The position numbers were made by a program, and so were the translations under genes. Under the pieces are notes generated by a model. It had not been told where the DNA came from and ran no database searches. It was given only the letters and a program-made list of their open reading frames with translations. DNA of 45,111 bases from Acholeplasmataceae bacterium (GTDB lineage: Bacteria; Bacillota_I; Bacilli_A; ML615J-28; CAG-313), in contig DUPC01000059.1 in NCBI GenBank assembly GCA_012838545.1, positions 1-45,111 of the forward strand. Direction: 5' to 3'. Positions 2,091 to 44,905 of this stretch are shown piece by piece. The first letter of the stretch is position 1. Every line of letters starts with the position of its first letter.

Positions 2091-2108
2091 TCGGTAAAGG
2101 AGGTTAAA

Positions 2109-3473: not shown

Positions 3474-3481
3474 ATTAAAGT

Positions 3482-3507: not shown

Positions 3508-3527
3508 CTCTTCTATTAGAGGTGAAT

Positions 3528-6488: not shown

Positions 6489-6490
6489 CC

Positions 6491-7411: not shown

Positions 7412-7424
7412 GGAGGGTAGATAT

Positions 7425-8291: not shown

Positions 8292-8300
8292 GTGATGCCG

Positions 8301-13559: not shown

Positions 13560-13564
13560 AGTAA

Positions 13565-14515
13565 GTGGAAAACCTGTTAAATCGTCTTGTCAAAGCCAAA
13601 CAACAAATAAAGAAAGTTTTGTTTGGCATGAACTATTACAAAGGATTAATCTTTAAAATCGTAGTTTATGCGCTTTTGATAATATTTGGGTTTTTATATA
13701 TCTATCCTTTGTTGTTCATGATGATAACAAGTTTGAAAGGTCCGGAAGATTTAGTCGATACATCGATTAAATGGATTCCGAGGGAACTGGTTTTTGCCAA
13801 TTTTACTACCGCCATCCAAGAACTATCGTATTGGAAAGCTTTGTATAAATCGATTATTGTGGCTTTGGTGCCTTCTGTAATCAATACAGCGGTCGGTGCT
13901 TTATGTGCATACGGTTTTTCGCGCTTTCGCTTTCCCGGCAAAAAGTTTCTATTCGCAATTATGTTGATTACTTTTATCATTCCGAAACAGTTAATCAACA
14001 TTCCTCAATATACCTGGTATTATCGATTGGATATCGTGGGATCGCTATTTACCTATATTTTGCCTTCGACTTTTGGCCAAGGGCTTTATTCGGCAATTTA
14101 TATATTGGTTCTCTACAGCATGTTCAACTTAATACCAATTCAACTCGAAGAATCGGCCAAAATGGACGGGGCCTCAACCGTAACCATTTTTATCAAGGTG
14201 GCTTTGCCTTTGGTTATTCCGGGCATTATTACCGTTTTTCTTTTCAGTTTTGTGTGGTATTGGAACGATGCTTCCACTGCCGCACTGTATTTGGCCCAAC
14301 CGGGCAAAGACTACTGGGCAACTTTGCCGGTAATGCTTGAGAGATATCAAAACGCCATCTTCAGCATTACCCACGGAGGAGTCGGAGCCGTGCTTTACCA
14401 AGGCATCCGCATGGCCGGCACGCTCCTTTCCATCTTGCCTTTGTTGATTATTTACTTTTCGCTCCAACGCTACTTCGTGGAAAGCGTTGAAAGAACTGGA
14501 ATTGCAGGTGAATGA
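13565..14515 (+). CDS. ABC sugar permease, MalG/UgpE type (pair 2)
   Basis: 316 residues, six hydrophobic segments after a cytoplasmic N-terminus of about 35 residues. The EAA motif is a variant, Glu-Glu-Ser-Ala-Lys-Met-Asp-Gly-Ala-Ser, still followed by Leu-Pro-Leu-Val-Ile-Pro. The start is GTG at 13565 with AGGAGGTGAAGTAA upstream; no better ATG fits until residue 20. The C-terminus ends in Arg-Thr-Gly-Ile-Ala-Gly-Glu, a normal MalG-type tail. It pairs with the protein at 12669 and shares the operon with the GH3 enzyme that begins 3 bases after its stop. Confidence 0.9.
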   Translation: MENLLNRLVKAKQQIKKVLFGMNYYKGLIFKIVVYALLIIFGFLYIYPLLFMMITSLKGPEDLVDTSIKWIPRELVFANFTTAIQELSYWKALYKSIIVALVPSVINTAVGALCAYGFSRFRFPGKKFLFAIMLITFIIPKQLINIPQYTWYYRLDIVGSLFTYILPSTFGQGLYSAIYILVLYSMFNLIPIQLEESAKMDGASTVTIFIKVALPLVIPGIITVFLFSFVWYWNDASTAALYLAQPGKDYWATLPVMLERYQNAIFSITHGGVGAVLYQGIRMAGTLLSILPLLIIYFSLQRYFVESVERTGIAGE

Positions 14516-14518
14516 TAT

Positions 14519-16585: not shown

Positions 16586-17586
16586 CCAAAGAGACGGGTT
16601 ATTCGGTTGCCACGGTATCCAAAGCCTTGAATGATTATCCCGATGTTTCTCCCAAAACCAAAAAGATAATTATGGCCAAAGCGAAGGAACTCGGTTATTT
16701 TCCGAATTCTTTTGGAAAGAACCTAGTTACCAAAAGGTCGTTCACCATCGGTGTTGTTTTTGAAGAACAATCCGGTGTGGGGTTATCCCATCCTTTCTTT
16801 GGCGAAGTATTAAGCATTATCAAAACTCACATTGAAATGCACGGTTACGATATGCTTTTGATGAGCAAGAAAATCGGTCCGTATGTTAGGTCATATATGG
16901 ATCACTGTTACCAAAAAGGGGTTGACGGCGTCATCGTCATCAGTGCTGATTTAGACAAAGAAAACTATAACCGGTTAATCGAAAGCAATTTGCCAATGAT
17001 CTTAATCGATTTTCAAAACAAAATCAAAAACACCATTTATACCAATAACTTCAAATCAACCTTTGATTCGGTGACCTATTTGGTTAATAAAGGTCATAAA
17101 AAAATCGGTTATATCCGCGGGGATTTGAACCGTTTTACCGGAAAAGAGCGTTATGCGGGGTTTCTTGCAGGTTGCAAACATTATGGGTTGCCTGTTACGG
17201 ATGATCTTATTTTTGACGGTCGCCAATACTTGTTTGACGAAGGGGAAAAAGTGGCAAGTCTTATCAAACAAATGCCTGAACCCCCAACCGCTATCCTTTG
17301 CGCCAGCGATACCTTGGCGATTGGTTTAATGAAAGGTTTGTTCAACCACGGCATTAGGGTTCCGGAAGATATCTCCATCATGGGATTTGACGATATCAGA
17401 ATGGCTGCGCAGATTTATCCTGCCTTAACCACGGTTGCCCAAGACAAACAAAGCATTGGGAAAAGCGCGGCGGAAAAATTAATCGACCAAATCACCAACC
17501 CTCACCAAAAGGTTGAGGCGATTATGGTCGACGGTATGATTATCGAACGTCAAACCGTTTTGGATTTAAATCAAAAAGTAAAATAA
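16564..17586 (+). CDS. LacI-family transcriptional regulator
   Basis: 340 residues with an N-terminal LacI helix-turn-helix (residues 2-25: Ile-Lys-Glu-Leu-Ala-Lys-Glu-Thr-Gly-Tyr-Ser-Val-Ala-Thr-Val-Ser-Lys), the hinge helix near 48-58, and a periplasmic-binding-protein-like effector domain from about 60 on, with Ile-Met-Gly-Phe-Asp-Asp-Ile typical of the family. It is the last gene of the operon, starts within the GH3 gene with AAAGGAGGGCA as its ribosome site, and is followed by a strong terminator. It should repress or activate this operon in response to an imported sugar; its operator would be upstream of the window. It might also control the operon at 30746, whose promoter holds a LacI-type palindrome, but that is inference. 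Confidence 0.93.
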   Translation: MVNIKELAKETGYSVATVSKALNDYPDVSPKTKKIIMAKAKELGYFPNSFGKNLVTKRSFTIGVVFEEQSGVGLSHPFFGEVLSIIKTHIEMHGYDMLLMSKKIGPYVRSYMDHCYQKGVDGVIVISADLDKENYNRLIESNLPMILIDFQNKIKNTIYTNNFKSTFDSVTYLVNKGHKKIGYIRGDLNRFTGKERYAGFLAGCKHYGLPVTDDLIFDGRQYLFDEGEKVASLIKQMPEPPTAILCASDTLAIGLMKGLFNHGIRVPEDISIMGFDDIRMAAQIYPALTTVAQDKQSIGKSAAEKLIDQITNPHQKVEAIMVDGMIIERQTVLDLNQKVK

Positions 17587-30693: not shown

Positions 30694-30723
30694 GTTTTTT
30701 GTGAAAACGTTTTAGTGTATAAT
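30694..30723 (+). promoter_or_regulatory. Promoter with LacI-type palindromic operator, second sugar operon
   Basis: A consensus TATAAT lies at 30718-30723 with a T-rich weak -35 around 30694-30700. Between them sits the perfect palindrome AAAACGTTTT (30704-30713), centred on CG as LacI-family operators are. A repressor bound there would block RNA polymerase. No regulator gene is inside this operon; the LacI-family protein from 16564, or the gene starting at 45079, are candidates. Confidence 0.7.
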
Positions 30724-30745: not shown

Positions 30746-32158
30746 ATGAAAAGATTAATGGTATTAATAACAATTGCGCTTTTTGTTTTTGCTTTAAGCG
30801 CATGTAAAGATAAAAATGATAAAATTGTCATCACTATTGGTATGTGGCCCGATGAAACCGCCAAAGAAGACGTCGAAATGTTTAAAGAATGGAAAAGGCG
30901 TTTCGAGAACGATTACCCTCAATATGAAATTAAAGGTCAAAACTATGAGTACAATGTCGATACATTCTTGTTTATGGCCGAAACCGGAACAATTCCGACA
31001 GTCTTTCAAACCTGGTTTACCGAACCGCAAAAGTTAATTGCCAACGGTTATGTTAAGGACATCACCGATGAATTAAAAACATTGGGTTGGTATGACAAAA
31101 TGGATCCGGAAATGCGCGCTGCCATGAGTGCTAATGGCAGAACCTACGGCGTTCCGCGCGACGGGTATGGATTGGGATTATTTATGAATTTGCAATTATT
31201 GGAAGAAGCGGGTCTAATCGAAGATTATGACCATGATGGAAAACTCGATTTATATGATTCGGAAGGAAATCCGCTATACCCCGAAACATTCGATAAACTC
31301 TTAACCATGGCTTCGACCGTCACCGAACGGCTGGAATACGTCGCCGGTTTCATGGTGCTTTCCGCCAACAAACAAGGCGGATGGCAATTCAGCAACATCG
31401 CCTGGAACTTCGGAGCGGATTTGCAAGTTCAAGAAAACGGCAAATGGGTTTCCAAACTAAACTCCCCCGGAGCTATTGCAGCATTGGAATGGATTAAAAA
31501 AATCAAACACGAAAACAATGCCTTGCCAAGCGACGTCTCCCTATCCTATAACGACTGGTGGAGCAAAATCGGTCAAGAAACACTGGCGATGTGCATTGTC
31601 GGAAGTGACGCCATTGCCACACCGTTTGTTAACATGGATAAACCGACCGATTATCCGTATGCATTTGTTCCGATGCCGGCAGGTCCGTCAGGCGAACGCT
31701 ATTCCTTATTTGGCGGAACCCCATATATGTTCTCTGCCAAAGCCACCAGCGAACAAGTCATGGGTGCTTTAAGATTCTTGGAATACATGGGAAGATCGCC
31801 GGAAATGAGCGATGTGGCGAAACAAAGCATTGAAGACGGTATGCAAGTAGCTCTTAAAAAAGGCATGCCGATACTTCCTTCCATCAAACCTTGGATTAAC
31901 GAAGATTATGTTTCATATATGGAAAACATGGAACAAATCTATTGCAATGTCAATATGGATTATTTCAAAGATTTTTATGCCTTGTTCGATTCGATGAAAC
32001 GAACTGAAGAACCGCACTACTGTCAAGAAATGTACAAAGCATTGGATGGAGCGATTCAAACCATCCTCGACCCAAAAGGTATTACCGTCAATGTAGAAAA
32101 CCTGCTTACAACCATCAACAACGATTTTCAAAAGAACTATATGAACAACGTTAATTAA
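30746..32158 (+). CDS. ABC sugar transporter substrate-binding lipoprotein with calcium-loop-like insert
   Basis: 470 residues; lipobox Leu-Ser-Ala-Cys with acylated Cys20. The mature domain is a family 1 sugar-binding protein (starts Val-Ile-Thr-Ile-Gly-Met-Trp-Pro). An unusual feature is residues 160-171, Asp-Tyr-Asp-His-Asp-Gly-Lys-Leu-Asp-Leu-Tyr-Asp, which fits the 12-residue EF-hand/dockerin calcium loop. AAGGAGG is 9-10 bases ahead of the ATG. First gene of the second sugar operon; the two permeases follow after 43 bases. The GH65 enzymes downstream suggest an alpha-linked gluco-oligosaccharide or glucoside as ligand. Confidence 0.92.
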   Translation: MKRLMVLITIALFVFALSACKDKNDKIVITIGMWPDETAKEDVEMFKEWKRRFENDYPQYEIKGQNYEYNVDTFLFMAETGTIPTVFQTWFTEPQKLIANGYVKDITDELKTLGWYDKMDPEMRAAMSANGRTYGVPRDGYGLGLFMNLQLLEEAGLIEDYDHDGKLDLYDSEGNPLYPETFDKLLTMASTVTERLEYVAGFMVLSANKQGGWQFSNIAWNFGADLQVQENGKWVSKLNSPGAIAALEWIKKIKHENNALPSDVSLSYNDWWSKIGQETLAMCIVGSDAIATPFVNMDKPTDYPYAFVPMPAGPSGERYSLFGGTPYMFSAKATSEQVMGALRFLEYMGRSPEMSDVAKQSIEDGMQVALKKGMPILPSIKPWINEDYVSYMENMEQIYCNVNMDYFKDFYALFDSMKRTEEPHYCQEMYKALDGAIQTILDPKGITVNVENLLTTINNDFQKNYMNNVN

Positions 32159-32201
32159 TTAAATTTTCCAACCAAACCAAAGGAAGAGGAGGTGGTGGAA
32201 T

Positions 32202-33119
32202 TTGCGCGAAACGATGCAAAAAATACGGCTGAAAGTATGGAAATTCCTCAAGAAAAACGCCATGGGGTGGGCGATAATGTTACCGGGTCTCGTCCTTTTT
32301 GCGTTCTATATTTGGATTCCCCTCTTCCAAAACATTTCGCTTTCTTTTTTTGAAACCGCAGGAACCGCTAAGGTAAAGTTTGTCGGTTTGGAACAATACC
32401 AAATATTGTTTCAAAGCAGAGACTTTATCCAAGCTTTGGGTAATACTTTTGAATACACGCTTTGGTCTATGATAATCGGCTTCTTGCTTCCGATTATTAT
32501 TGCCCTTATTTTGAACGAAGTGGTGCATTTAAGAGGGCTTTTCCGAACGCTTATCTATTTTCCGAACATCGTGCCGGGGATTGCGGTGGCGATTATGTGG
32601 ATGTTCTTGTTTGATCCAAATTCCTATGGTGTTTTAAATTCTCTTTTTAAAACCCACCACCTATGGCTCAATAACGAAAAAACGGTTATCCCTTTGATTG
32701 TTTTTACTTTGACTTGGAAAGGCGCGGGCGCAACTTCTTTGATATATCTTGCCAATTTGCAAACCATTGACAAAGTATACTACGAAGCCGCAAGACTCGA
32801 AGGAGCAAGTGCTTGGCAGCGCTTTAGGCATGTAACGCTTCCTCATTTGAAAGGACAAATCAAAATGCTTTTGATTGTCCAGATTATCTCGGTTTTCCAA
32901 GTCTTTTACGAACCGCTCGTGATGACGAAGGGCGGCGGACCAAATGGCGCATCTTCGACCTTGGTTCAACTAATCTACCAAATCGCTTTTGTGGAAGGGA
33001 ATGCGGGGAAAGCGGCCGCTTTAAGCGTTATAGTTGCTTTGCTTTTGTTTATGCTCACAGGCTTTTACTTTTATTTTGGAAAAGAAAGGAGGAAACACGT
33101 TGGCAAAATTGCGAAATAA
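32202..33119 (+). CDS. ABC sugar permease, MalF/UgpA type (second operon)
   Basis: 305 residues, six hydrophobic segments, EAA loop Tyr-Glu-Ala-Ala-Arg-Leu-Glu-Gly-Ala-Ser-Ala-Trp. The start is TTG at 32202, placed 7-8 bases after GAGGAGGTGG; the next in-frame ATG at 32214 is too far from it. Forms the channel with the protein at 33100, whose gene starts inside its last 20 bases. The EAA loop has Glu-Gly where Asp-Gly is usual, a known variation. Confidence 0.9.
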   Translation: MRETMQKIRLKVWKFLKKNAMGWAIMLPGLVLFAFYIWIPLFQNISLSFFETAGTAKVKFVGLEQYQILFQSRDFIQALGNTFEYTLWSMIIGFLLPIIIALILNEVVHLRGLFRTLIYFPNIVPGIAVAIMWMFLFDPNSYGVLNSLFKTHHLWLNNEKTVIPLIVFTLTWKGAGATSLIYLANLQTIDKVYYEAARLEGASAWQRFRHVTLPHLKGQIKMLLIVQIISVFQVFYEPLVMTKGGGPNGASSTLVQLIYQIAFVEGNAGKAAALSVIVALLLFMLTGFYFYFGKERRKHVGKIAK

Positions 33120-33984
33120 AACCGCTGGAATACTTAATTTTAGTGATTACAAGAAATGGTATTTCAAGTTGTTTTATGTTTTGTTGATTTTAATTTTGTT
33201 GTTTATTGTTTTTATCAGCGTTGTTCCTCCGCTTTGGGTTTTGATATCCGGATTCAAGGAACCTTCTGAGTTATTTTCGCCAAAATTTTCGTTCTTTCCC
33301 GAACACTTTAAATTCAGCAAACTCCTATCCGCATGGAACCGTTTAAATGTTGGCAAATATTATCTGAACTCGGTTATTGTGGTTGCGGGGTCGGTTGCCT
33401 CGGCAGTCTTGTTTAACGGTTTGATGGCTTATGTGATATCTGTATTGAAACCTTTCGGACACAAAATCATATATGTTCTCCTTTTAATGACCATGATGAT
33501 TCCTGCAATCACCAATATGAAAACACTTCTGGGCAATATTGTAAAACTTGGTTTAATGCAAAGTTATTTGCCGCTATGGTTATCGTATGGAGCAAATGTC
33601 TTTTATGTTGTCCTGTTTAAGACTTATTTCGATTCAATTCCCCAACCTTTAATTGAAGCTGCTCGTCTTGACGGAGCATCCAGCTGGCAAATCTTTACGA
33701 AAATTATTTTTCCCCTTTCGTTGCCGATTGCGATGGTTGTTTCGATATTTACGGTTAATGCTTCTTGGAGCGACTTTTTATTGCCTTTTTTGGTAATAAC
33801 AGATCCCGACAAACAAACCCTGATGGTTAGAATATATCGGGTCAATATGAATCCGCCAAGTGGAATGACTCAAGACCAAATATTGTTGTTGATTGGTCTA
33901 TCGATAATCCCGGTATTGATTCTATTCGGTATCTTTCAGCGACAAATTACCGATAGCGTAGCCACTACCGGCATTAAGGAATAG
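33100..33984 (+). CDS. ABC sugar permease, MalG/UgpE type (second operon)
   Basis: 294 residues from TTG 33100, preceded by AAAGGAGGAAACACG; the frame stays open back to 33034 but that start has no ribosome site and lies deep in the previous gene. Six hydrophobic segments and the EAA loop Glu-Ala-Ala-Arg-Leu-Asp-Gly-Ala-Ser-Ser-Trp. The tail Thr-Thr-Gly-Ile-Lys-Glu is typical of MalG-type permeases. Both permeases of this pair use TTG starts, which may set their low, matched expression relative to the binding protein. Confidence 0.9.
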   Translation: MAKLRNKTAGILNFSDYKKWYFKLFYVLLILILLFIVFISVVPPLWVLISGFKEPSELFSPKFSFFPEHFKFSKLLSAWNRLNVGKYYLNSVIVVAGSVASAVLFNGLMAYVISVLKPFGHKIIYVLLLMTMMIPAITNMKTLLGNIVKLGLMQSYLPLWLSYGANVFYVVLFKTYFDSIPQPLIEAARLDGASSWQIFTKIIFPLSLPIAMVVSIFTVNASWSDFLLPFLVITDPDKQTLMVRIYRVNMNPPSGMTQDQILLLIGLSIIPVLILFGIFQRQITDSVATTGIKE

Positions 33985-33992
33985 TGATTGAT

Positions 33993-36263
33993 ATGGTTAA
34001 AAAAGCAATAAAATATTATCAAGTAAACCCTTGGGCAATTATCGAAAAAGGCTTTGATCCCACAAGGTCCATGGCGAGCGAATCGATCTTTTCCCTTGCC
34101 AACGAATATATGGGAGTCAGAGGTTTTTTCGATGAAGGATACTCCGGCAATTCTTTAATCGGCACTTATTTCAACGGTTTGTATGAACTTCCGAATAAAC
34201 CCGGAAATGCCGGTTACAAAGGAATCAGCAAAAAAAGCCACTTCATGGTCAATTCCGTAAATTGTTTTGCAACCGAAATATATCTTAACAATCAATTGGT
34301 GGATTTGGCCAAAGGCGATTTTTCCGACTTTACCCGCACGCTGGATATGCGCAGCGGAGAATTGGTACGTAAATATAAATACCGCCAAAACGATAATTTA
34401 GTGGAAATTACCTTTAAACGCTTGTTGGACATGGTGAACTACACCAACGCTTATCAGGTAATCGAAATCAAAGTTTTGGAAGGCAAAATCGATTTATTGT
34501 TAAAATCCCATTTGGATTATGCTGTTAAGCACTTTGGCAGTTTAAAACCCTGGAAAATAATCAACTCAAGGGAAATACCCAAGGGTTTCAGAGTCCTTTC
34601 CCAAACCAAAAAATCGAAACAAAATTTATATACCGACGAAGAAATTATTGTCAATAGCGGTGCTTTGACAACCGTAACCGATAAAAAGCAAAATCTATCC
34701 AAACAAATAGTTTTAACATTAACCAAAGATTCCCGATTTGTCTTGGAAAAACGGTTAAGCCACTTGGCATTTCAGGGCGAATTTATTAATTGTTTTGAAG
34801 ATCGCCTCGAAGAAATTGTAAAGAAAAGAGTTGGTTACGAAGAAGCCTTAAAATCCAATAAGGCCTATTTCCAAAAGAAATGGGCGGAATGCGATATCGA
34901 AATTGAAGGGGACGAAGAAAACCTGCAAGGAATTCGTTTTTGCATCTTTAATCTGTTTCAGACATATCGCGGCATTTCTACGAATAACATTGGTGCCAAA
35001 GGATTAACCGGGGAAGCCTACAGCGGTCACGCCTTTTGGGATACCGAGACATATATCCTTCCTTTCTATTTGTTCAGCGATCCGCTGGTTGCGAAAAAGT
35101 TATTAATGTTTCGCTACCGAACCTTGCCTAATGCTATTTTGAGGGCTAAGGAATTGGATTGCCGCGGAGCCTGTTATCCGATAGCGACTCTTAACGGCGA
35201 TGAGGCTTGCGAATTATGGCAACATGCCTCGCTTCAATTTCAACCTTCGACCGGTGTGGCTTTTGCGATTTGGCACTATGTCCATTTGACGAAAGATTAT
35301 GATTTCCTTCTTCACTACGGTGCCCAGATGCTTGTGGAAATATCAAGGTTTTTGGCATCTCGGGGCGATTGGAATCCTGATGGAACAGGCTTTGGCTTTT
35401 ACGGTGTAATGGGGCCGGACGAGTTCCAAATGATGGTCCACAACAACACCTATACCAACTATATGGCCAAACGCACCTTTATTTACACCTATGAGGTATT
35501 AAAGTGGATGAGGGAAAACCATCCGCAGGAGTTCGAGAAACTTATGCAAAAATGTACGCTTTCGGAAAACGAAGTCGATGACTTTTTAACCAAAGCGCAA
35601 AAAATGATAATCCTATATGACGACAACACCTGTTTGTTTGAACAACACGACGGCTTTTTCAAGTTGCCGCATATCGATAAAAACACAATCTCGGTGGATG
35701 AATTTCCGCTTTACTCGCATTGGTCGTATGATCGCTTATACAGAAACGATCTCATCAAACAGCCCGATGTCCTTATGATGATGTTTCTTTATAATCAATC
35801 ATTTTCGCTAGAACAAAAACGGGCCAATTATGAGTTTTATGAACCGAAGACTATTCACGAATCCAGCTTATCGCCGTCAATTCACTCGATTCTGGCTATG
35901 GAACTAAATAAGTCCGATGAAGCTTTATCCTTCTTTAGCTTTGCGACCCGCTTGGACTTGGACGATTATAATCGCAATACCTCGGAAGGACTTCATGTTA
36001 CAAGCCTTTCTGCGGCTTGGCTCAATATTGTCTACGGTTTTGGCGGTTTAAGAAGTGACGGAAAACACTTAAAAATTGCGCCGAAACTTCCAAAAAACTG
36101 GGAAAGATTAAAATTCAAAATTCAATATCGCGACCGCACCATCGAAGTCGAAACCACAAAAACGGATTCCACCGTCAAAGTTTACGGCGACAGTCTCGAA
36201 CTGCAAATTTATGACCAATTGTATTTGGTCGATAAATTAATCAAAGTAAAAACTGGTGGCTGA
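33993..36263 (+). CDS. GH65 glycoside phosphorylase A
   Basis: 756 residues (ATG 33993; an in-frame GTG at 33984 is possible but is only 2 bases from the AAGGA). The GH65 layout is clear: N-terminal super-sandwich with Tyr-Met-Gly-Val-Arg-Gly-Phe-Phe-Asp-Glu-Gly, linker, an alpha/alpha barrel with Ala-Phe-Trp-Asp-Thr-Glu, the catalytic acid Glu477 in Met-Gly-Pro-Asp-Glu-Phe, and His-Glu-Ser-Ser-Leu-Ser near the phosphate site. It is cytoplasmic and phosphorolyses an alpha-glucoside with inversion to beta-glucose 1-phosphate. Family members differ in linkage (trehalose, kojibiose, nigerose, maltose, glucosylglycerol, glucosylrhamnose); I cannot fix the linkage by eye. It is distinct from its GH65 neighbour, which starts 1 base after its stop. 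Confidence 0.92.
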   Translation: MVKKAIKYYQVNPWAIIEKGFDPTRSMASESIFSLANEYMGVRGFFDEGYSGNSLIGTYFNGLYELPNKPGNAGYKGISKKSHFMVNSVNCFATEIYLNNQLVDLAKGDFSDFTRTLDMRSGELVRKYKYRQNDNLVEITFKRLLDMVNYTNAYQVIEIKVLEGKIDLLLKSHLDYAVKHFGSLKPWKIINSREIPKGFRVLSQTKKSKQNLYTDEEIIVNSGALTTVTDKKQNLSKQIVLTLTKDSRFVLEKRLSHLAFQGEFINCFEDRLEEIVKKRVGYEEALKSNKAYFQKKWAECDIEIEGDEENLQGIRFCIFNLFQTYRGISTNNIGAKGLTGEAYSGHAFWDTETYILPFYLFSDPLVAKKLLMFRYRTLPNAILRAKELDCRGACYPIATLNGDEACELWQHASLQFQPSTGVAFAIWHYVHLTKDYDFLLHYGAQMLVEISRFLASRGDWNPDGTGFGFYGVMGPDEFQMMVHNNTYTNYMAKRTFIYTYEVLKWMRENHPQEFEKLMQKCTLSENEVDDFLTKAQKMIILYDDNTCLFEQHDGFFKLPHIDKNTISVDEFPLYSHWSYDRLYRNDLIKQPDVLMMMFLYNQSFSLEQKRANYEFYEPKTIHESSLSPSIHSILAMELNKSDEALSFFSFATRLDLDDYNRNTSEGLHVTSLSAAWLNIVYGFGGLRSDGKHLKIAPKLPKNWERLKFKIQYRDRTIEVETTKTDSTVKVYGDSLELQIYDQLYLVDKLIKVKTGG

Positions 36264-36264
36264 G

Positions 36265-38430
36265 ATGATTGTCAAAACCGAATATTTCAGTCAGGCGGAT
36301 ATTGAAAAAAACGGTAATAAGTTTATAATCGGCAACGGTTATTTGGGTTATCGCGGAACGCTTGAGGAATTTCGTAAAACGGAACTCGTGGCATTGAACA
36401 TGCCCGGTGTTTACGATACTTTGCCAGGCAAGTGGACCGATTCCGTTAATGCCCCCAATCCCTTTTATACTTATTTGGAGATTTTGGGTTGCGAGGGTAA
36501 AAAGGAAACTGAAATCCTTCATCCTTTAAAATCAAAAATAGTCAGCCACAAGCAAGGGATTATCTTGGACGAAGCCCTACATTTTCGCGAAACGGTTTTT
36601 CAAACCTCACAAGGCAATTTAACTGTTTCTTCAAAGCGCTTTGTCAGTTCAGCTTATTATCCGATTCTGGGTATGGAAATGAATATTACCCCGAAAAACC
36701 CGATGGAAATTGTGATAAACACCGGAATCGATAAAGAGGTTTGGGACCAATTCGGTCCGCATTTGGAAAGTGGGGAAGCAAGCGTCCAAAATGATGTCTT
36801 AATATATGTTTGCCGAACAAAAGAGAAAGGATTAAATTTAACGGTTCAAGAAAAAATTGCTTATTCTCCTTATTATGAAACCTATGAAAACATCGAAAAT
36901 TTCCCCGATAAATTAATGCGTATAATCAAAGTGCGCTTAAAAAGGGGAGAAACTTTTAAGTTTACCAAACTTGCTTGTATTACTCTTAATCAGGCAGTAG
37001 AGGAAAGTCTTTGGGGTTTAAGATATCAAAAACATTATTTGATGCATCGCAATTGTTTCAGGGAACGGTTCAATAGTGCAAACATTCAAGTTGAAGGCGA
37101 CGGCCTTGCTCAACTCGGCATCAGTTACAGCATTTATCACTTATTAATTTTGGCTCCACATCACAAAAAAAGCGCATCCATCCCCGCAAGAGGTTTATCC
37201 GGCCAAGTCTACAAGGGAGCGGTCTTTTGGGATACGGAAATCTTTATGTTTCCTTTCTTCGTCTTAACCGCACCGGAAGTTGCCAAAACCTTGCTTAGGT
37301 ATCGAATCGATTCCTTGCCCAAAGCTATTCAAAAAGCACAGGAATTTGGCTTTTCGGGAGCATATTACCCTTGGGAATCGATTGAGGACGGAGTCGATGC
37401 TTGTTCCCTCTTTAACGTTACGGATGTCTTTACGAACCGTCCTATCCGCACTTATTTCAAAGATAAACAAATTCATATTAGCAGTGCCATAGTTTACGCA
37501 CTTGACCGATACTTTAAATATACCGGCGATTTTTCCTTCTTAACGGAAGATACAATGCAAGTCTTTTATGAGGTTGCGCTATTCTATTATTCGCGTATTT
37601 ACAACAGCCAGTGGCAAGACAGATATATTTTGACCGATGTAACCGGTCCCGACGAATACCATGAGCGCGTTGACAACAACGCATACACCAATTATATGGC
37701 GCATTTTAGTTTTGAAGTTTTTCTTAAGTATTATGGACTTTTTTGGTCAATTAACCAAAAAAGCATAATTCGGATGGAAGATTTGAAGAGTAAATTATCC
37801 CAAGTATTGGCAAAGCTTTATTTGCCGAAACCAAATAAAAACAATTTGATTGAGCAGTTTGACGGTTACTTCGCATTAGAAGATATTTCGATAGAGGAAT
37901 TAAAAAAACGCCAGCTGCATCCAAATGAATATTTGGGCGGAGCTTGGGGGCTTGCGAGCAGCACCCAATTAATCAAACAGGCTGACGTCCTGACAATGTT
38001 ATGGCATTTTAAAGAACAGTTTTCTTTAGACGTCTTAAAAGCAAACTATGAATATTATTCGCCCCGCACTCTCCATACTTCCAGTTTAAGCGCCTGCATG
38101 TACGGTCTTGTCGCTTCCTTGATCGGCAAACTTGACGATAGCTATCGTTTCTTCTTGGATAGCGCTTTAATCGATTACGAAGGAAAAGGCGGAAAGTATG
38201 CCGGAGGAATCTATATTGGCGGAACTCATCCCGCTTCCAGCGGCGGAGCATATATGTTAATGGTTTTGGGGTTTGCGGGGGTGAGGTTTGAAGGCGGTAA
38301 AATAACTGTTAAACCCAATCTTCCGCCCCCAATCAAAGGATTGAAATTTACCGTCAATTATCTCGGAAAACTTTATCAAATCGAGATAAAGGGTAGCACA
38401 GGAAGCGTAACGGGGGTAGAGTCCATGTGA
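36265..38430 (+). CDS. GH65 glycoside phosphorylase B
   Basis: 721 residues (ATG 36265; GTG 36256 in frame overlaps the previous gene). Tyr-Leu-Gly-Tyr-Arg-Gly-Thr-Leu-Glu-Glu-Phe opens the N-terminal domain; the barrel has Val-Phe-Trp-Asp-Thr-Glu, the catalytic acid Glu464 in Thr-Gly-Pro-Asp-Glu-Tyr-His-Glu, and His-Thr-Ser-Ser-Leu-Ser for phosphate. Its Asp-Glu-Tyr-His-Glu-Arg-Val-Asp-Asn-Asn is the canonical GH65 form, while enzyme A has Asp-Glu-Phe-Gln-Met. The early Pro-Gly-Val-Tyr-Asp-Thr-Leu-Pro stretch reminds me of nigerose/glucosylrhamnose-type phosphorylases, but this is a weak guess. Two GH65 enzymes side by side imply a substrate with two kinds of alpha linkage, or a branched one. 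Its stop overlaps the pgmB start by 3 bases. Confidence 0.92.
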   Translation: MIVKTEYFSQADIEKNGNKFIIGNGYLGYRGTLEEFRKTELVALNMPGVYDTLPGKWTDSVNAPNPFYTYLEILGCEGKKETEILHPLKSKIVSHKQGIILDEALHFRETVFQTSQGNLTVSSKRFVSSAYYPILGMEMNITPKNPMEIVINTGIDKEVWDQFGPHLESGEASVQNDVLIYVCRTKEKGLNLTVQEKIAYSPYYETYENIENFPDKLMRIIKVRLKRGETFKFTKLACITLNQAVEESLWGLRYQKHYLMHRNCFRERFNSANIQVEGDGLAQLGISYSIYHLLILAPHHKKSASIPARGLSGQVYKGAVFWDTEIFMFPFFVLTAPEVAKTLLRYRIDSLPKAIQKAQEFGFSGAYYPWESIEDGVDACSLFNVTDVFTNRPIRTYFKDKQIHISSAIVYALDRYFKYTGDFSFLTEDTMQVFYEVALFYYSRIYNSQWQDRYILTDVTGPDEYHERVDNNAYTNYMAHFSFEVFLKYYGLFWSINQKSIIRMEDLKSKLSQVLAKLYLPKPNKNNLIEQFDGYFALEDISIEELKKRQLHPNEYLGGAWGLASSTQLIKQADVLTMLWHFKEQFSLDVLKANYEYYSPRTLHTSSLSACMYGLVASLIGKLDDSYRFFLDSALIDYEGKGGKYAGGIYIGGTHPASSGGAYMLMVLGFAGVRFEGGKITVKPNLPPPIKGLKFTVNYLGKLYQIEIKGSTGSVTGVESM

Positions 38431-39113
38431 TTAAGTTAGTAATCTTTGATTTGGACGGCGTAATTGTTTCCACCGACGAACTCCATTATCAAGCTTGGAA
38501 AAGGATTGCGGAACAAGAAACAATCCCCTTTGACCGAAATATCAACAATCGTTTAAGGGGAGTAAGCCGAAAAGAAAGTTTGGAAATCATCTTAAGTTAT
38601 TCCCCAAAACAATATACAAAAAACCAAAAAGAAGTTTTGATGGAACAAAAAAATGCTTATTATGTGTCTTCCTTGAAGGATCTAACTTCACAAGACATTC
38701 TTCCGGGAGTAACCGAAGTTTTAAAAGAATTAAAGCAGCGCAAGATTAAAGTATCAATTGCTTCATCAAGCAAAAACGCGCGTCTTATTTTAAAGCAAAT
38801 CGGTTTATTGGATGTATTTGACAGTATCGTTGACGGCAACATGATTACTCATTCCAAACCCCATCCCGAGGTGTTTCAACAAGCTGCCCAAGCATTAAAG
38901 GTGCCTTGCGAAAACGCACTTGTGGTGGAAGATGCCAGAAGCGGCATTGACGGTGCGCTTAAGGCAAACATGCTTGCGATTGGAATCGGGGACGCCGCTC
39001 GGTATGATAAATGTCATTTTAAAATTCTAGCTTTAAATGAATTGATTCCAATATTAGAAAAAATTTCTGTTAAGCAATGCTCTCGGCATTCGCTTAAGAA
39101 AGGAGAATTATGA
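38427..39113 (+). CDS. pgmB: Beta-phosphoglucomutase
   Basis: 228 residues, HAD superfamily. The nucleophile Asp8 and acid/base Asp10 lie in Phe-Asp-Leu-Asp-Gly-Val, motif II Ser is in Ile-Ala-Ser-Ser-Ser-Lys-Asn, and the late Val-Glu-Asp-Ala-Arg-Ser-Gly-Ile gives the magnesium-binding acids. The cap has Arg-Leu-Arg-Gly-Val-Ser-Arg, typical of beta-PGM. It turns the beta-glucose 1-phosphate from the two GH65 enzymes into glucose 6-phosphate. GTG start at 38427 overlapping the GH65 stop (GTGA); ribosome site is GGGGGT, weak, so it depends on coupling. Its own stop overlaps the next ATG (ATGA). Confidence 0.95.
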   Translation: MIKLVIFDLDGVIVSTDELHYQAWKRIAEQETIPFDRNINNRLRGVSRKESLEIILSYSPKQYTKNQKEVLMEQKNAYYVSSLKDLTSQDILPGVTEVLKELKQRKIKVSIASSSKNARLILKQIGLLDVFDSIVDGNMITHSKPHPEVFQQAAQALKVPCENALVVEDARSGIDGALKANMLAIGIGDAARYDKCHFKILALNELIPILEKISVKQCSRHSLKKGEL

Positions 39114-41668
39114 GAAAAACACTATTATTGTTTATTTCGGTTGTTCTCATCTTTTCGCTTTTTAAATGCAAAGACGAGCCCAATCCGCCGGATAACGAAG
39201 ATTCGATCGTAACTCCGATTGTCGAAACCAAAAAAACGGTTAATACCACCAAGGTCGTAACCTACGAGGGTCCCAGCATCTTGGAGTCGTCAAGTCTTGC
39301 CCAAGTTTGGGTTAACGATACGGAACTCTTCGTCTACGAAACAAACGTAAACCACGGCAGGGTATTTACCTTCAGTCAACAAAACATTAAAAAGGTGCCT
39401 GTTGCTATCTTCGATTTCGAAGGTAAAGTTACTGTAAAAGTAAAAATTCCGGAAGCAGAACTGACAAGCGCAAAAGTAACGCCGGAAAGCTATAACATCA
39501 CCCCAACCATTAACGGCGACACCATAAGTTTTGTCTTGGAATATCCGACGAGTTACACTTTGGAATACAATGGACAAACAACCAATGTGGTGCACATTTT
39601 CGCCAATCCTCTTGAGGAAAACACACCTGACCCCGCCAATATCCCAAATGATATGATTTATATCGGTCCGGGCGTATATAAATCCGACGCTATTCCGGTA
39701 ACAAGCGGAAAGACGGTTTATATTGCGGGAGGGGCGGTTGTTTATGGAAATATCCGAGCATCGCATGTGGAAAATGTCACGATTCGCGGTCGGGGAATTA
39801 TCTCGGGCGATATCTATCCCAGAACCAAGGCCAGCGAATTTACGATTCCGTTTGAAATCAGACATTCCAAAAACGTCACATTGGAAGGCCTAACTTTCCT
39901 CGATTCCGCTGGTTGGACCATCAATGCTTATTTTTTGGACGGTTTGGAAATCAACAATATCAAAATCGTAACCGCCCGCGCTAACGGTGACGGTATCTCC
40001 TTGCAATCGTGCCAAAACGTTTTGGTCAAACACAGTTTTGTTCGCAGTTGGGACGACGCTTTGGTTGTCAAAAACTATGACCGGGGAGTTACGGAAAACA
40101 TTCGCTTTGAAAACATTACGATTTGGAACGATTTGGCTCAAAGCATGGAAATCGGTTATGAGGCTTATGGCGATTATATAAAAAACGTTGTTTTCAATAA
40201 TATCACGATTTTGCATAACTTCCATAAACCCGCAATGAGCATTCATAATGCGGATGACGCACATGTTTCCGACATCATCTTTAACAACATTACGATTGAA
40301 GATGCGCAAATGAACGGCGACAACCAAAAGGAAAACTATGACGATTTTCTGATTGAACTAAATATTTTATATAACTTGGAATGGACCAAGAGCGGTCAAA
40401 AACGCGGTTTGATTGACAATGTTACTTTCAACAACATCGTCGTGAAAAACGGAAAAGCTGACCTTAATACCAGAATAAACGGCTTTGACGCCAATCATCG
40501 CATAACCAATGTCAAATTTAACAACATTCAGTATTTAGATAAACAAGTGAAATCTGCCACTGACCTAAACGTTTCAAGCAACAATTTTACTTCAGAAATC
40601 AGTTATAACTTTACGAAGAATCCTACCGGAAGCGAAGTATACCATGCTTATAATCTGGATTTGAAAGATACGAAAGTCCAAATCATCAATAAGCCGAATG
40701 TCAATCAAGTGGGTGTCATGGTTCCGGAGTTTTCCATCGGCGAACTCACCAAAGCTTATATGGGTGTTAAAGTTTCCGGGGAATTCACTATCACCGCTAC
40801 TCACGGTACTTCGACCGCTGTGTGGGACGATGGCAGCGGGGATTATTCAAAAGAAGGTTATCCGGTTGCCAATTTGTTAAACGAAAACAATAGTTCGGCT
40901 TGGCAAGCCCAACCTTGGACCGGAGTCGATGGCGAATACGCTTCAATCAATATTACCTTTGATGAAAGTAAAACCATCGGAACGATTCGTCTTTACGGCG
41001 ATACCGAATCCATGTTCTTCTTAACGCAAAACATTGCCATTTACGGTATTCGTTCCTCCAGCACAAGCGGAAACTTCTTAAAATTAACCAATTCAGACAA
41101 TTACCACTTTACCCCGGCTAGCGGAAATTATGTAGATATCAAGATTAATCCGGTTGAACTGACCGCTGTTCAAATCCGGATTTATAACAAAAAGTCTTTG
41201 GCCAGTCCTACCGAAGCATTTTTAAATCAAATTGAATTTTATCCGGCCAGTCTAAGTTTCGGCAAAGCGGTTAGCGGTACAGCTCATGAAGATGTTTATG
41301 TCATTAACAATTTGGTGGACGGCATACCAGCAACATACTATGAAGCCAAAAAAGGTACGCTTCCTGCCACCATTACCATTGATTTTGGCGCTGACTACAA
41401 CATCAAATACATCAATCTCTTCTTGCCGCCGTTAATGCAATGGGAAGCCCGTACGCAAGTTATTGATTTCTTGGTCAGCAGCGACGGACAAAACTTTACC
41501 GAAATCATTCACCAAATGAGTTGTCGATTTAATCCTGCAACCGGCAATGTTGTCGAAATCATTCTCGATACGCCGGTCAATTGTCGATACTTACGTCTTA
41601 ATGTTGTTTCAAACACATCTAGCGGAGGAGAAAGCGCTCAGCTATCCGAAATTAGTGTGTATGAATAA
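39110..41668 (+). CDS. Exported beta-helix glycoside hydrolase (GH28-like fold) with two F5/8-type-C-like modules
   Basis: 852 residues. The N-terminal hydrophobic segment ends Leu-Phe-Lys-Cys20, a lipoprotein-like site with an unusual Lys before Cys. A small beta domain (about 40-165) precedes a right-handed beta-helix (about 175-500) with many Asn-Ile-Thr-Ile and Asn-Asn-Ile ladder turns. Asn-Gly-Asp294-Gly-Ile and Trp-Asp315-Asp316-Ala give three acidic residues spaced 21 and 1 apart, as in GH28 enzymes, but the GH28 Gly-His-Gly is absent and Gln-Ser-Met-Glu-Ile-Gly-Tyr stands near that place. GH49 dextranase and GH87 alpha-1,3-glucanase share the fold. Two F5/8-type-C (CBM32-like) modules follow (about 570-710 and 715-852). 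In the operon of alpha-glucoside phosphorylases, an alpha-glucan-cutting role is attractive but unproven. AAAGGAG precedes the ATG. Confidence 0.82.
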   Translation: MRKTLLLFISVVLIFSLFKCKDEPNPPDNEDSIVTPIVETKKTVNTTKVVTYEGPSILESSSLAQVWVNDTELFVYETNVNHGRVFTFSQQNIKKVPVAIFDFEGKVTVKVKIPEAELTSAKVTPESYNITPTINGDTISFVLEYPTSYTLEYNGQTTNVVHIFANPLEENTPDPANIPNDMIYIGPGVYKSDAIPVTSGKTVYIAGGAVVYGNIRASHVENVTIRGRGIISGDIYPRTKASEFTIPFEIRHSKNVTLEGLTFLDSAGWTINAYFLDGLEINNIKIVTARANGDGISLQSCQNVLVKHSFVRSWDDALVVKNYDRGVTENIRFENITIWNDLAQSMEIGYEAYGDYIKNVVFNNITILHNFHKPAMSIHNADDAHVSDIIFNNITIEDAQMNGDNQKENYDDFLIELNILYNLEWTKSGQKRGLIDNVTFNNIVVKNGKADLNTRINGFDANHRITNVKFNNIQYLDKQVKSATDLNVSSNNFTSEISYNFTKNPTGSEVYHAYNLDLKDTKVQIINKPNVNQVGVMVPEFSIGELTKAYMGVKVSGEFTITATHGTSTAVWDDGSGDYSKEGYPVANLLNENNSSAWQAQPWTGVDGEYASINITFDESKTIGTIRLYGDTESMFFLTQNIAIYGIRSSSTSGNFLKLTNSDNYHFTPASGNYVDIKINPVELTAVQIRIYNKKSLASPTEAFLNQIEFYPASLSFGKAVSGTAHEDVYVINNLVDGIPATYYEAKKGTLPATITIDFGADYNIKYINLFLPPLMQWEARTQVIDFLVSSDGQNFTEIIHQMSCRFNPATGNVVEIILDTPVNCRYLRLNVVSNTSSGGESAQLSEISVYE

Positions 41669-41695
41669 AAAATTAAAAAAAGGAGAATGGAGAAA

Positions 41696-44600
41696 ATGAA
41701 AAAAACCTTACTAACTTTTCTACTATTAATGGTAGGTTTTTTTGCAACGGGTTTAAGGGTTCAAGCTTCAGACATCAAGGTTGCGCCTGTTCGCAATGAA
41801 ACAGAATATCTCGGTCGCGAATACAATCCCGACTTTGATAAATTATTTGATGATTTTACCCGCAGTTCATTAACCGATGTGACGGGAACAGGTTTATGGT
41901 GGGCGTACAACGAAACCGATGAAGTTACCGGCGCACGTTTCACCGAAAGACCAAATTATCTTCATGTCAATTATCAAGGCGATTCGGGCAGCAGACTCGA
42001 CAATCCAATTTACAAAGCTGCCTCCGCCGCAAACACCGAAGGGGCTTATCCGTATTTGGTGTTTGTCATGAGAGGTTCCAATGGGGCATCAATTGAGGAT
42101 TTAACTTTATTGTTCCGTTATGACGACAATCATAACGACATCCCGGTGCCTTTTACAGAACTGGTTGACCCGGATGGCGGATTATTGCCGGAATTAACCG
42201 AAAACTATCAAGTTTACATTATTGATATTTTGAATTCGCTTGATGGAAAAGAATACACGGGTGAAGGCGAAACAGCGATTCCCGCGGGAAGCGAAATGGT
42301 TGGTTTCCACTTAGTATCCGCTTCGGAATCCGTGGGCACCATCGATATTAAAGAAGTGTATTATTCCAAGTTGGTCAATACCATGGGATACGAAGAAGGC
42401 GTCAACAACTCGCTTCTTGACAAATTCGATCGGGTTGACCCTAATACCGGAAACAAAAACGTTTATTGGTGCGGTTCCACGGGTCGCATTATCGGCCAAC
42501 ACCTCTTGCTTGACGGATCCGAAGGCCTTGCCCATTACCGCGCGGCGGGATATGAGGCAGGAAACCCAGCCGGCACTTTTGAAAACTTTGTGCTTCGCGT
42601 CCGGGGCGAAACAGGGCTAGAAGACGTCATGATTGCCCCATTCTATGTAACCGATGAAGGCGAAGTTTGGGGTGAAGCCAAAGCTTTATCTGCTTTGGTT
42701 GGTCCGGATGACGAAGTTGTTCCAAGCCTTTCAACTAATTTCCAAAATCTTGTTATCAACTTTGAAAAGAACGGTTGGGACAAAAACATCAACGGTTTCA
42801 AATTTGAAACAACGGACGAAGTGGTATATATTGATGCGGTATACTTTACCAACATGGAATATAATGCCGGGTCCATCAGAACCGAATATCCGAAACTAAA
42901 CAAACAGGATATCATTATTTTCGATAACTTTAAACGCGAAGCGGTCGGGGCAACTTCTGCATACGATGGCAACAACCCGGTAGCTTTGGCATATGGATTT
43001 GAATTTATCATTTCGTATACGGGGATTGAACGGTTGTCGATTGTCGATGACAATTTAGTCTTTGACTGCACCGAAAATGATGCCCACATTCAATATACCG
43101 CGGTATCCGTTCAAAGAAGCAATGACGGAACTTACCCAAATGTTGTCATCAAATATAAAACAAGCGATGGCGGATCGATTGCCAATTTCCGGATGCAAAC
43201 CATTGGTCCGGAAGACACTCTTAGCGAAGTCGTATGGGCTAACGGCGGCTTAAAGAGCGGTTCCGGTCTTGCAACAGCCACCGAAAACCAAGACAAATAC
43301 CCGTATGTTACAAAAGACGGTTATAATTATTTGATTGTTGACCTTGCTCATAGTGGTCTTGGAACCGATCCACAAGGCTTCCACTTATTCTATAGCGGGG
43401 AAGGAAAACTGTGGATTGACGATATCTTCTTTGCGAAAGAACACAAAGACGTTTTGGATGAAGAAAGCAAGATTGTGTTTGATGATGCAGAGCGGGACGA
43501 AGCATTCCCGTCCGACCCAGAAACCATCAACAAATGGTGGTTGGGGGGCGAAGGCGTAACCATCGAAGACGGAGCGCTTGTCTTTGATTTTGCCAACGGC
43601 GAACACGTGTACTACCAAGGAGCAGGAAAACCGGGCTTTAACAATAAAGACAATCCTCGTCAATACTTGTTGCTTAGAATGAAAGGCGAAGAAGGCACCG
43701 ATTTCAATACCTTTAGAATCGAAACGATTTCCCCTGACGGTGGACCGCTCTTTTTTAATGCCAGCACAGCCGTTCTCATGGACGGAAGTACGTTGAAAAC
43801 CGAAGACTTAACAACCGAATACCAAACCTTTGTAATCGATATTGTCAAATCCGGCTTACCAGCCGATTTTGAAGGGATCAGATTGATTGCGGGTGATTGG
43901 GGAAGCGGTAAAATATATGTCGACGAAATCAGTTTCATTGATAAAGTATCCGAACCATTGTTAAAAGAAGGCGAATATATCCTTTTCGATGATGCTGAGC
44001 GCGACGAAGCATTCCCAGCCAATCCTGAATCAATCAACAAATGGTGGTTGGGGGGCGAAGGCGTAACCGTCGAAGACGGAGCACTTGTCTTTGATTTCTC
44101 CAACAGCGAACACGTTTATTATCAAGGTGCTGGAAAACCAGGCTTCAACAACAAAGATTCCGCTTACGAATACTTAATTTTAAGAATGAAAGGTGCGGAA
44201 GGAACCGACTTCAATACCCTTAGAATCGAATCGATTTCTACCGACGGCGGACCATTATTCTTTAATGCGGGCGGAGTAGTTTTGGCGGACGGCAGCATTT
44301 TGACAACCAATGCTTTAACTACCGAATATCAAACCTTCATCATCGATTTGGCGGCTTCCGGTTTGCCACGCGACATGGAAGGAATCAGATTGATTGCGGG
44401 TGATTGGGGTAGCGGAAAAATCTATGTCGACGAGATTGCGTTTGCGGGGGCAAACAGTTCGTTGAAAGCTATTGAAGCTCTTCTTGAAAGTTCGGTAGTT
44501 CCAGAAAAATTGTCGACTCCAACCGATTTAACGGCTGAATATGCCAATGAACAATTGACTGTAAGCTGGACAAACGTTGAAGGCGCAACTTCTTATACCG

Positions 44601-44905
44601 TATTTATCTATCGTGGCGAAGAAGTGGTAAAAACATTTACCAATATAACTAGCGGTAAAACTTTCACTAAGTCCGAACTAGGTCTGGCAAACGATACTTA
44701 TACGGTTAAAGTTCAAGCCATCGGTGACGGCGAAAACTTTTTGGATTCCGATTTATCGGAAAGCTCCTCCAGTTTCACTGTCAATATTCAAACAGAACCT
44801 CAACCGGAATCTTGTGCGGGATGCAACTCGCAAAGTTTTATCTACTATTCGTTAATGTTGCTATCTGCTTGCATGGTATTAATGATTAGAAGAAGAAAAG
44901 CTTAA
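41696..44905 (+). CDS. Large repetitive surface protein with Fn3-like domain and Cys-Gly-Cys/transmembrane tail
   Basis: 1069 residues from ATG 41696 (an in-frame ATG at 41687 sits 1 base from AGGAG). Signal peptide 1-25, cut near Val-Gln-Ala-Ser. Five beta-sandwich modules of about 165-190 residues follow, each opening Phe-Asp-(Asp/Asn)-(Ala/Phe) and ending with an Ile/Tyr-Val-Asp-Glu-Ile or Trp-Ile-Asp-Asp-Ile strand, the look of carbohydrate-binding modules; the last two are near copies. One Fn3-like domain (about 940-1030) resembles those of the protein at 3-2090. The tail is Ser-Cys-Ala-Gly-Cys-Asn-Ser, a hydrophobic helix, and Arg-Arg-Arg-Lys, which should hold it on the outer membrane face. 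Probably tethers glycan for the beta-helix enzyme. Last gene of the operon, before a terminator. Confidence 0.82.
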   Translation: MKKTLLTFLLLMVGFFATGLRVQASDIKVAPVRNETEYLGREYNPDFDKLFDDFTRSSLTDVTGTGLWWAYNETDEVTGARFTERPNYLHVNYQGDSGSRLDNPIYKAASAANTEGAYPYLVFVMRGSNGASIEDLTLLFRYDDNHNDIPVPFTELVDPDGGLLPELTENYQVYIIDILNSLDGKEYTGEGETAIPAGSEMVGFHLVSASESVGTIDIKEVYYSKLVNTMGYEEGVNNSLLDKFDRVDPNTGNKNVYWCGSTGRIIGQHLLLDGSEGLAHYRAAGYEAGNPAGTFENFVLRVRGETGLEDVMIAPFYVTDEGEVWGEAKALSALVGPDDEVVPSLSTNFQNLVINFEKNGWDKNINGFKFETTDEVVYIDAVYFTNMEYNAGSIRTEYPKLNKQDIIIFDNFKREAVGATSAYDGNNPVALAYGFEFIISYTGIERLSIVDDNLVFDCTENDAHIQYTAVSVQRSNDGTYPNVVIKYKTSDGGSIANFRMQTIGPEDTLSEVVWANGGLKSGSGLATATENQDKYPYVTKDGYNYLIVDLAHSGLGTDPQGFHLFYSGEGKLWIDDIFFAKEHKDVLDEESKIVFDDAERDEAFPSDPETINKWWLGGEGVTIEDGALVFDFANGEHVYYQGAGKPGFNNKDNPRQYLLLRMKGEEGTDFNTFRIETISPDGGPLFFNASTAVLMDGSTLKTEDLTTEYQTFVIDIVKSGLPADFEGIRLIAGDWGSGKIYVDEISFIDKVSEPLLKEGEYILFDDAERDEAFPANPESINKWWLGGEGVTVEDGALVFDFSNSEHVYYQGAGKPGFNNKDSAYEYLILRMKGAEGTDFNTLRIESISTDGGPLFFNAGGVVLADGSILTTNALTTEYQTFIIDLAASGLPRDMEGIRLIAGDWGSGKIYVDEIAFAGANSSLKAIEALLESSVVPEKLSTPTDLTAEYANEQLTVSWTNVEGATSYTVFIYRGEEVVKTFTNITSGKTFTKSELGLANDTYTVKVQAIGDGENFLDSDLSESSSSFTVNIQTEPQPESCAGCNSQSFIYYSLMLLSACMVLMIRRRKA
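43481..44450 (+). repeat. Two tandem module repeats of 507 bp
   Basis: Units start at 43481 and 43988 (period 507 bp, 169 residues) and match closely along their whole length, including an identical stretch of over 30 bp near 43527 and 44034. Three older, diverged copies of the module precede them in the same gene. Confidence 0.85.

Follow-up and report, generated by a model that had tools for sequence, protein, structure and literature searches.

Two GH65 phosphorylase-type enzymes and a GH49-like beta-helix lipoprotein in one operon of an Acholeplasmataceae bacterium: a candidate route for alpha-1,3-glucan utilization

The 45,111-nucleotide stretch analysed here (the window) is contig DUPC01000059.1, part of the 1.71 Mb draft genome of an Acholeplasmataceae bacterium (GCA_012838545.1). 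It carries a tightly packed operon of eight same-strand genes (30746–44905, forward strand), in which two glycoside hydrolase family 65 proteins (GH65-A and GH65-B, below A and B) are accompanied by an ATP-binding cassette (ABC) importer, a beta-phosphoglucomutase (beta-PGM), a secreted beta-helix lipoprotein and a large surface protein. Genes were called under translation table 11, and all of the named parts are present and intact. We propose, with somewhat more confidence than doubt, that the operon allows the cell to grow, with little expense of ATP, on alpha-1,3-glucan or oligosaccharides derived from it. The features are as follows.

30702..30714 (+), candidate operator palindrome TGAAAACGTTTTA, directly before a TATAAT box (30718–30723); candidate LacI-family or catabolite-repression site
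30746..32158 (+), sugar-binding lipoprotein of the ABC importer (PF13416, 78.5 bits; 59% identity to the binding protein of a cassette in a Haloplasma metagenome-assembled genome, MAG)
32202..33119 (+), ABC permease 1 (PF00528, 74.7 bits)
33034..33984 (+), ABC permease 2, open reading frame (ORF) as listed, homologues suggesting a true start near 33100 (PF00528, 55.3 bits)
33984..36263 (+), GH65-A, alpha-1,3-oligoglucan-phosphorylase-like, GTG start (PF03632, 349 bits; best PDB match 6w0p, 731 bits)
36256..38430 (+), GH65-B, nigerose-phosphorylase-like (PF03632, 322 bits; best PDB match 4ktp, 380 bits)
38427..39113 (+), beta-phosphoglucomutase (TIGR01990, 250.8 bits against a cut-off of 189.4)
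39110..41668 (+), secreted beta-helix lipoprotein with F5/8C module (PF00295, GH28, 36.7 bits against 22.9; F5/8C, 76.1 bits)
41687..44905 (+), surface protein of 1072 residues: five beta-sandwich modules, an Fn3-like stretch and a C-terminal Cys, transmembrane and RRRK tail

Neighbouring coding regions between 33984 and 39113 overlap by 1–8 bases, as in a translationally coupled operon. An earlier reading of this DNA, made from the sequence alone (the original prediction), started A at the in-frame ATG at 33993, where the 6w0p alignment begins; the importer (30746–33984) and the surface protein (41687–44905) lie just outside the coordinates it gave. No GH65 gene other than A and B was found in this draft genome.

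Phosphate in the structures of GH65 phosphorylases is held by two Ser, a His and a Lys, which are lost in GH65 hydrolases (passages of PMC8626586). These residues and the specificity fingerprints were read from proteins of 600–900 aa, comprising those of the window plus 78 A (>44% identity) and 61 B (>36%) proteins. The catalytic Glu is E480 in A (codon 35421–35423; 79/79 A-family rows) and E467 in B (codon 37654–37656; 62/62 B-family rows). Of the phosphate residues, S627, S628 and H671 of A are kept in 79/79, as are S609 and H658 of B in 62/62; S610 of B is Ser in 59 proteins and Thr in three. By alignment, K339 in the GAKGL motif of A was taken as the phosphate Lys, and B has Arg312 at this position, as in the phosphorylase 4ktp. 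Since the catalytic Glu is invariant and the phosphate Ser/Ser/His are kept, A and B are of the phosphorylase type and, judged from these residues, both should be inverting GH65 phosphorylases. A GH65 hydrolase was considered for A and B and rejected on the retained phosphate residues. The two share only 25% identity in the window and fall into separate clades. With a beta-PGM scoring above the TIGR01990 cut-off, this bears out the original prediction of two different GH65 enzymes with intact catalytic Glu followed by beta-PGM, and supports its phosphorolytic alpha-glucan route to glucose 6-phosphate.

Substrate specificity was read at six fingerprint positions (64/392/394/402/416/585) from alignments to CsKP, the reference of PMC8537180. 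The motifs given in passages of that paper (De Beul et al.) are KV[MF]NES for maltose, EEAPxx for kojibiose, TRIGPP for trehalose, DQGQDE for trehalose-6-P and FAITQA for alpha-1,3-oligoglucan. The A of the window reads FALEQS, within a family of F/Y-A-L/I-x-Q-S. Its nearest motif is FAITQA, with positions 64, 392 and 416 identical, 394 conservative, and 402 and 585 different. The A-family fingerprint is unlike the maltose, kojibiose, trehalose and trehalose-6-P motifs; a maltose phosphorylase was rejected for A on the comparison of KV[MF]NES with FALEQS. Two alpha-1,3-oligoglucan phosphorylases have been published, namely Cphy_3314 and ChGP (PMC8950772, table; PMC8537180, in part), and these are exceptions to the statement in the original prediction that most GH65 loci handle disaccharides only. 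The closest solved match of A, 6w0p (731 bits), reads FARNQS in our alignment. The entry, derived from an uncultured bacterium and unpublished, is titled kojibiose phosphorylase (PMC8950772); with this score and fingerprint it resembles the A-family proteins, and the kojibiose label seems doubtful. The B of the window reads DEISYA, within a family of EEQ[ST]Yx, and matches none of the five motifs quoted. Kojibiose phosphorylase (EEAPxx, Trp391/Glu392/Thr417) was rejected for B: Trp and Glu are present, but there is I/Q at 394, S/T at 402 and F at 417 in 61/62.

The beta-helix protein has an invariant Cys20 (lipoprotein), an N-terminal beta-sandwich followed by a right-handed beta-helix (approximately residues 36–500), an F5/8C module (residues 727–837) and invariant Asp294, Asp315 and Asp316. 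Aligned to the GH28 exopolygalacturonase 3jur, the protein retains the Asp triad, and the His, Arg and Lys of 3jur are replaced by Ala343, Ala375 and Ser377. We take these positions to be the GH28 catalytic His and the uronate-binding Arg and Lys. Around them, AQSME..E and S.H are invariant in 25/25 homologues. A partial profile match to the GH49 enzyme 1ogm was also obtained (E 4e-8). An AlphaFold2 model of residues 36–560, built on 25 homologues, has a mean predicted local distance difference test score (pLDDT) of 89.6. The top four structural hits of this model are all GH49 enzymes, isopullulanase and dextranases (Z 30.2, 29.6, 28.0 and 27.1; 415–421 residues; root mean square deviation 2.7–3.0), and the alignments to 3wwg, 1wmr, 6nzs and 1ogm cover both sandwich and helix (model 9/11–466). 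The GH28 proteins 2uve/2uvf, which have an extra domain, also span the model (Z 19.5), and the GH87 enzyme 6k0v matches it with Z 19.6 over 373 residues. The fold by itself gives no substrate. The protein is filed as a pectin enzyme, but its neighbours and predicted fold point to alpha-glucan.

A scan of named genomes with the A alignment gave 80 loci, 79 of which enter the locus counts (L100 drops out because an overlapping ORF displaced its A gene). B lies immediately downstream of A in 60/70 loci with at least 2.3 kb after A. Among the sources of the loci are cultured Peloplasma aerotolerans, Kineothrix alysoides, Enterococcus phoeniculicola and Clostridium folliculivorans, two named Lachnoclostridium phytofermentans genomes, and also MAGs labelled Planctomycetes, Chloroflexi and Actinomycetota. 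Because the same gene order recurs in many phyla, the gene set is not due to chance. The beta-helix gene is present in 32 A loci, among them 19 of the 43 well-flanked ones; a raw count of 33 had included L130, which matches by its F5/8C module only, and 24 loci span the Asp triad or match a short paralogue. Of 392 genomes from the phylum of the window, 11 have the beta-helix, 14 have B and 10 have the two together (Fisher p = 5e-16, or 1e-14 when the window's own genome is left out; neither value is corrected for kinship). In 8/9 of the other shared genomes the two genes lie on one contig, 7.7–12.5 kb apart. The exported beta-helix and the surface module protein belong to one conserved locus, in support of the original prediction, which placed them in the same operon. 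Variants occur: three relatives from the window's order have A, beta-PGM, importer and beta-helix and no B, and several Lachnospirales loci encode the F5/8C module in a gene of its own next to that for the beta-helix.

Fusions were also seen. Beta-PGM is fused to an MsmK-type ABC ATPase at L063:2251–4047 (599 aa) and L066:733–2490 (586 aa), linking the energising of the importer to the last step of the pathway. Permeases 1 and 2 form one 688-residue protein at L061:9477–11540 (in the Peloplasma aerotolerans genome) and L069:7712–9775. A run of GH13, a further GH65, A, B and GH31 in Enterococcus nangangensis (L138:1270–16712) suggests a wider alpha-glucan cluster.

GH87 alpha-1,3-glucanase (PF22815/PF22816) is encoded in 6/79 A loci (L118, L121, L128, L130, L148 and L152), five called by the Pfam scan and L152 by the 82% identity of its protein to that of L121. 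The beta-helix is found in 0/6 of these. The order in L130 is binding protein, permease, permease, A, B, LacI (reversed), beta-PGM and GH87; in L112, L122 and L125 it is the same, with the beta-helix last where L130 has GH87. This apparent replacement of one gene family by the other is the strongest pointer to alpha-1,3-glucan. GH31 genes occur in two further A loci. A search for GH87 in 60 relatives found none, but registered no positive control either.

The two named L. phytofermentans genomes (L117 and L122) hold A followed by B. In strain KNHs2131 the GH65 genes number exactly two, A and, after it, B; next come LacI (opposite strand), beta-PGM and the beta-helix. Cphy_3314 (ABX43668.1) is an alpha-1,3-oligoglucan phosphorylase and Cphy_3313 (ABX43667.1) a nigerose phosphorylase (PMC8950772, table). 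Since counting down from 3314 along A, B, LacI, beta-PGM and beta-helix gives 3310, Cphy_3310, described as GH28 (passages of PMC4230839; PMC3557285), would occupy the beta-helix position. From gene order, and in line with the GH65 fingerprints, A and B very probably correspond to Cphy_3314 and Cphy_3313, and the beta-helix orthologue to Cphy_3310. In Dictyoglomus turgidum, Dtur_0172, 47.1% like Cphy_3310, is numbered beside the GH31 alpha-glucosidase Dtur_0171 and away from the pectin genes Dtur_0430–0433 (PMC5167688, in part); the term GH65 is absent from the main text of that paper.

The analysis shows the gene content, its conservation, the intact phosphorylase residues and the predicted fold. 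For the rest we infer the linkage, the split by chain length, the endo action of the beta-helix and binding by the surface modules, and suggest the following mechanism. The membrane-anchored beta-helix lipoprotein, aided by the F5/8C and surface sandwich modules, would bind and cut the polymer extracellularly. Nigero-oligosaccharides would enter via the ABC importer, energised by an MsmK-like ATPase whose gene lies outside the operon. Once they are in the cytoplasm, A would phosphorolyse oligomers of at least three units from the non-reducing end, giving beta-glucose 1-phosphate, B would convert nigerose to beta-glucose 1-phosphate and glucose, and beta-PGM would form glucose 6-phosphate. No ATPase gene lies within the operon; of the MsmK-like ATPases elsewhere in the genome the best is 54% identical over 377 residues (in a frame with one stop) and the next 52%, with no stop. 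Two ROK-family proteins in the genome could phosphorylate the glucose.

Several findings weigh against the alpha-1,3-glucan proposal, and some of them favour other substrates. The most probable rival, which we regard as unlikely though worth attention, is a mixed-linkage alpha-glucan (nigeran, alternan or branched dextran), A taking alpha-1,3 and B another linkage, e.g. alpha-1,2. It would suit the low identity and separate clades of A and B and a fold match, GH49, that acts on alpha-1,6 and mixed alpha-glucans. Moreover, B keeps Trp391/Glu392 (62/62), as do kojibiose enzymes, for which the pair is tied to specificity (passages of PMC8626586), and its best solved match is a 2-O-alpha-glucosylglycerol phosphorylase. 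Within its family the window's B is also atypical: Glu is replaced by Asp at position 64 and Gln by Ile at 394, and it reads HTSS at a site that is HGSS or GGSS in 61/62 members. Its specificity may have drifted. On the other side, the adjacent L. phytofermentans pair is reported as two alpha-1,3 enzymes, GH87 replaces the beta-helix, and B departs from the kojibiose motif at 394 and 402 and from Thr417. One linkage, alpha-1,3, at two chain lengths is therefore the likeliest arrangement, better supported, with a long-chain and a disaccharide phosphorylase, than the polymer with two alpha linkages of the original prediction. The same solved relative of B, and the existence of a GH65 enzyme for glucosyl-rhamnose (PMC8950772, table), would fit a locus for glycans other than glucans that carry glucosyl groups, for instance glucosyl-rhamnose or glucosylglycerol, on which B would cut a terminal glucoside. 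We consider this very improbable: glucosylglycerol phosphorylase has I, G and P at 392, 394 and 402 where B has E, I/Q and S/T, and comparison with the window proteins, which would not name most such genes, recognised no glycerol or rhamnose gene in the loci.

A true GH28 pectin (uronate) enzyme beside GH65 genes serving an unrelated disaccharide seems to us improbable, although it has experimental data on its side. Cphy3310 of L. phytofermentans was among 56 up-regulated enzymes that were purified, and the homogalacturonan activity of the GH28 enzymes Cphy2567 and Cphy3310 is reported to be enhanced by the esterase Cphy1687 (Boutard et al., PMC4230839, in part). If Cphy3310 is orthologous, this assay is direct though possibly weak evidence for pectin activity. 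The original prediction had set its route against a beta-helix active only on pectin or another uronate polymer: the activity of the presumed orthologue on homogalacturonan partly raises this condition, but the sections of PMC4230839 consulted mention no alpha-1,3-glucan, dextran or nigeran. Pfam GH28 matches the beta-helix above the gathering score and 7/8 members match, and several NCBIfam pectinase models (galacturonidase, rhamnogalacturonidase) do so far below their cut-offs; among 8 members there was no Pfam GH49 match at E<=10. GH28 enzymes match the model with Z 24–26 over about 280–310 residues, mostly the helix only. These values are close to those for GH49, and because Z differs little the distinction rests on the extra domain. 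A pectin enzyme is opposed by the replaced GH28 His/Arg/Lys, by the match of sandwich plus helix to GH49, by the GH87 alpha-1,3-glucanase in the slot in L130 and by tight genetic linkage to alpha-glucoside phosphorylases. Uronate-metabolism genes were likewise unrecognised in the loci by the window-protein comparison, with its restriction given above. Further points are that neither beta-helix nor GH87 is present in 20/43 well-flanked A loci (43 minus 19 minus 4 with GH87), that G015 carries the beta-helix without any GH65, that the identity of A and B with Cphy_3314/3313 rests on gene order, and that glucokinase PF02685 was not found in the genome.

The beta-helix might define another family of enzymes that depolymerise alpha-1,3-glucan, in addition to GH71 and GH87, with a GH49-like fold and filed in databases as GH28 pectinase (including Cphy3310), and be the usual polymer-attacking partner of a widespread two-phosphorylase cassette reaching acholeplasma-type bacteria. 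We put this forward tentatively, as slightly less than an even prospect. A literature search, with most subscription papers outside its reach, recognised no paper in which this beta-helix is presented as an alpha-glucanase. The families GH71 and GH87 contain the known mutan hydrolases, few of which have been characterised (PMC11475409, in part), so a further enzyme type against the alpha-1,3-glucan of fungal walls and dental plaque would be useful. The annotation of many "GH28 pectinases" would be corrected, and the abundant GH65 pair would gain a substrate; its closest solved member is 6w0p, with the unpublished kojibiose phosphorylase label. Small-genome acholeplasma relatives, and the cultured wall-less Peloplasma aerotolerans, would use ATP-saving phosphorolysis of a structural polymer.

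The surface protein has no Pfam match. Of its modules M1–M5, M4 and M5 share 127 identical residues. A model of module 4 (pLDDT 85.6) matches carbohydrate-binding beta-sandwiches, e.g. CBM29 (E ~1e-6, TM ~0.55), and also other beta-sandwich domains at similar E-values, including Cry insecticidal proteins. From the fold and operon membership, the surface modules may bind glycan. Surface proteins of the order (window 44800–44905; L015:6270–9521; L017:41–643; L029; L105) end in Gly-Cys or Cys-x-x-Cys, a transmembrane stretch and RRK/RRRK. This tail resembles a sorting or anchoring signal and differs in other families. In G032 a separate GH65 locus (L029:5351–12640 and 12683–15202) encodes surface proteins of 1169 and 1286 aa and a large lipoprotein.

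The palindrome TGAAAACGTTTTA upstream of the operon has its sole exact copy in the window at this site, and its 5 matches at <=2 mismatches are at chance level. It overlaps a promoter-like region. In relatives LacI or a two-component pair accompanies the operon, but on this contig no regulator gene adjoins it. Promoter and terminator scans gave no more than shuffled sequence. A second sugar operon (144–17586) comprises two binding proteins, four permeases, an NHL/TPR membrane protein, DUF5696, GH3 and LacI; one of its binding proteins has 988 residues with the binding domain in the C-terminal part.

Among known systems, Cphy_3314/Cphy_3313 resemble the window in the adjacent GH65 pair and, in the L117/L122 order, in importer, LacI, beta-PGM and beta-helix; the L117/L122 copies are 49–50% (A) and about 42% (B) identical to those of the window, whose B fingerprint is atypical. 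For the cluster of the nigerose phosphorylase Cphy_1874, phosphorolytic use of nigerose with an endo-alpha-1,3-glucanase and ABC importer has been proposed; it has a putative GH87 and a GH31 (passages of PMC9061262), whereas the window pairs two GH65 enzymes with a GH49-like beta-helix. GH49 dextranase and isopullulanase (1ogm, 6nzs, 1wmr and 3wwg) share the two-domain sandwich and beta-helix fold (Z 27–30), at about 20% identity; the window protein adds an F5/8C module and a lipoprotein anchor. GH28 polygalacturonases (3jur, 5olp and 1bhe) share the beta-helix and aligned Asp triad, but most GH28 entries lack the sandwich match (2uve/2uvf excepted). GH87 alpha-1,3-glucanase takes the same slot in homologous loci, yet is a different sequence family. 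The E. coli ycj kojibiose phosphorylase operon has an ABC importer, GH65 and beta-PGM as in the window, with a single GH65 and no secreted depolymerase. The parts of the operon are of known kinds; what is new is their pairing with a GH49-like, GH28-annotated putative depolymerase and the breadth of the cassette.

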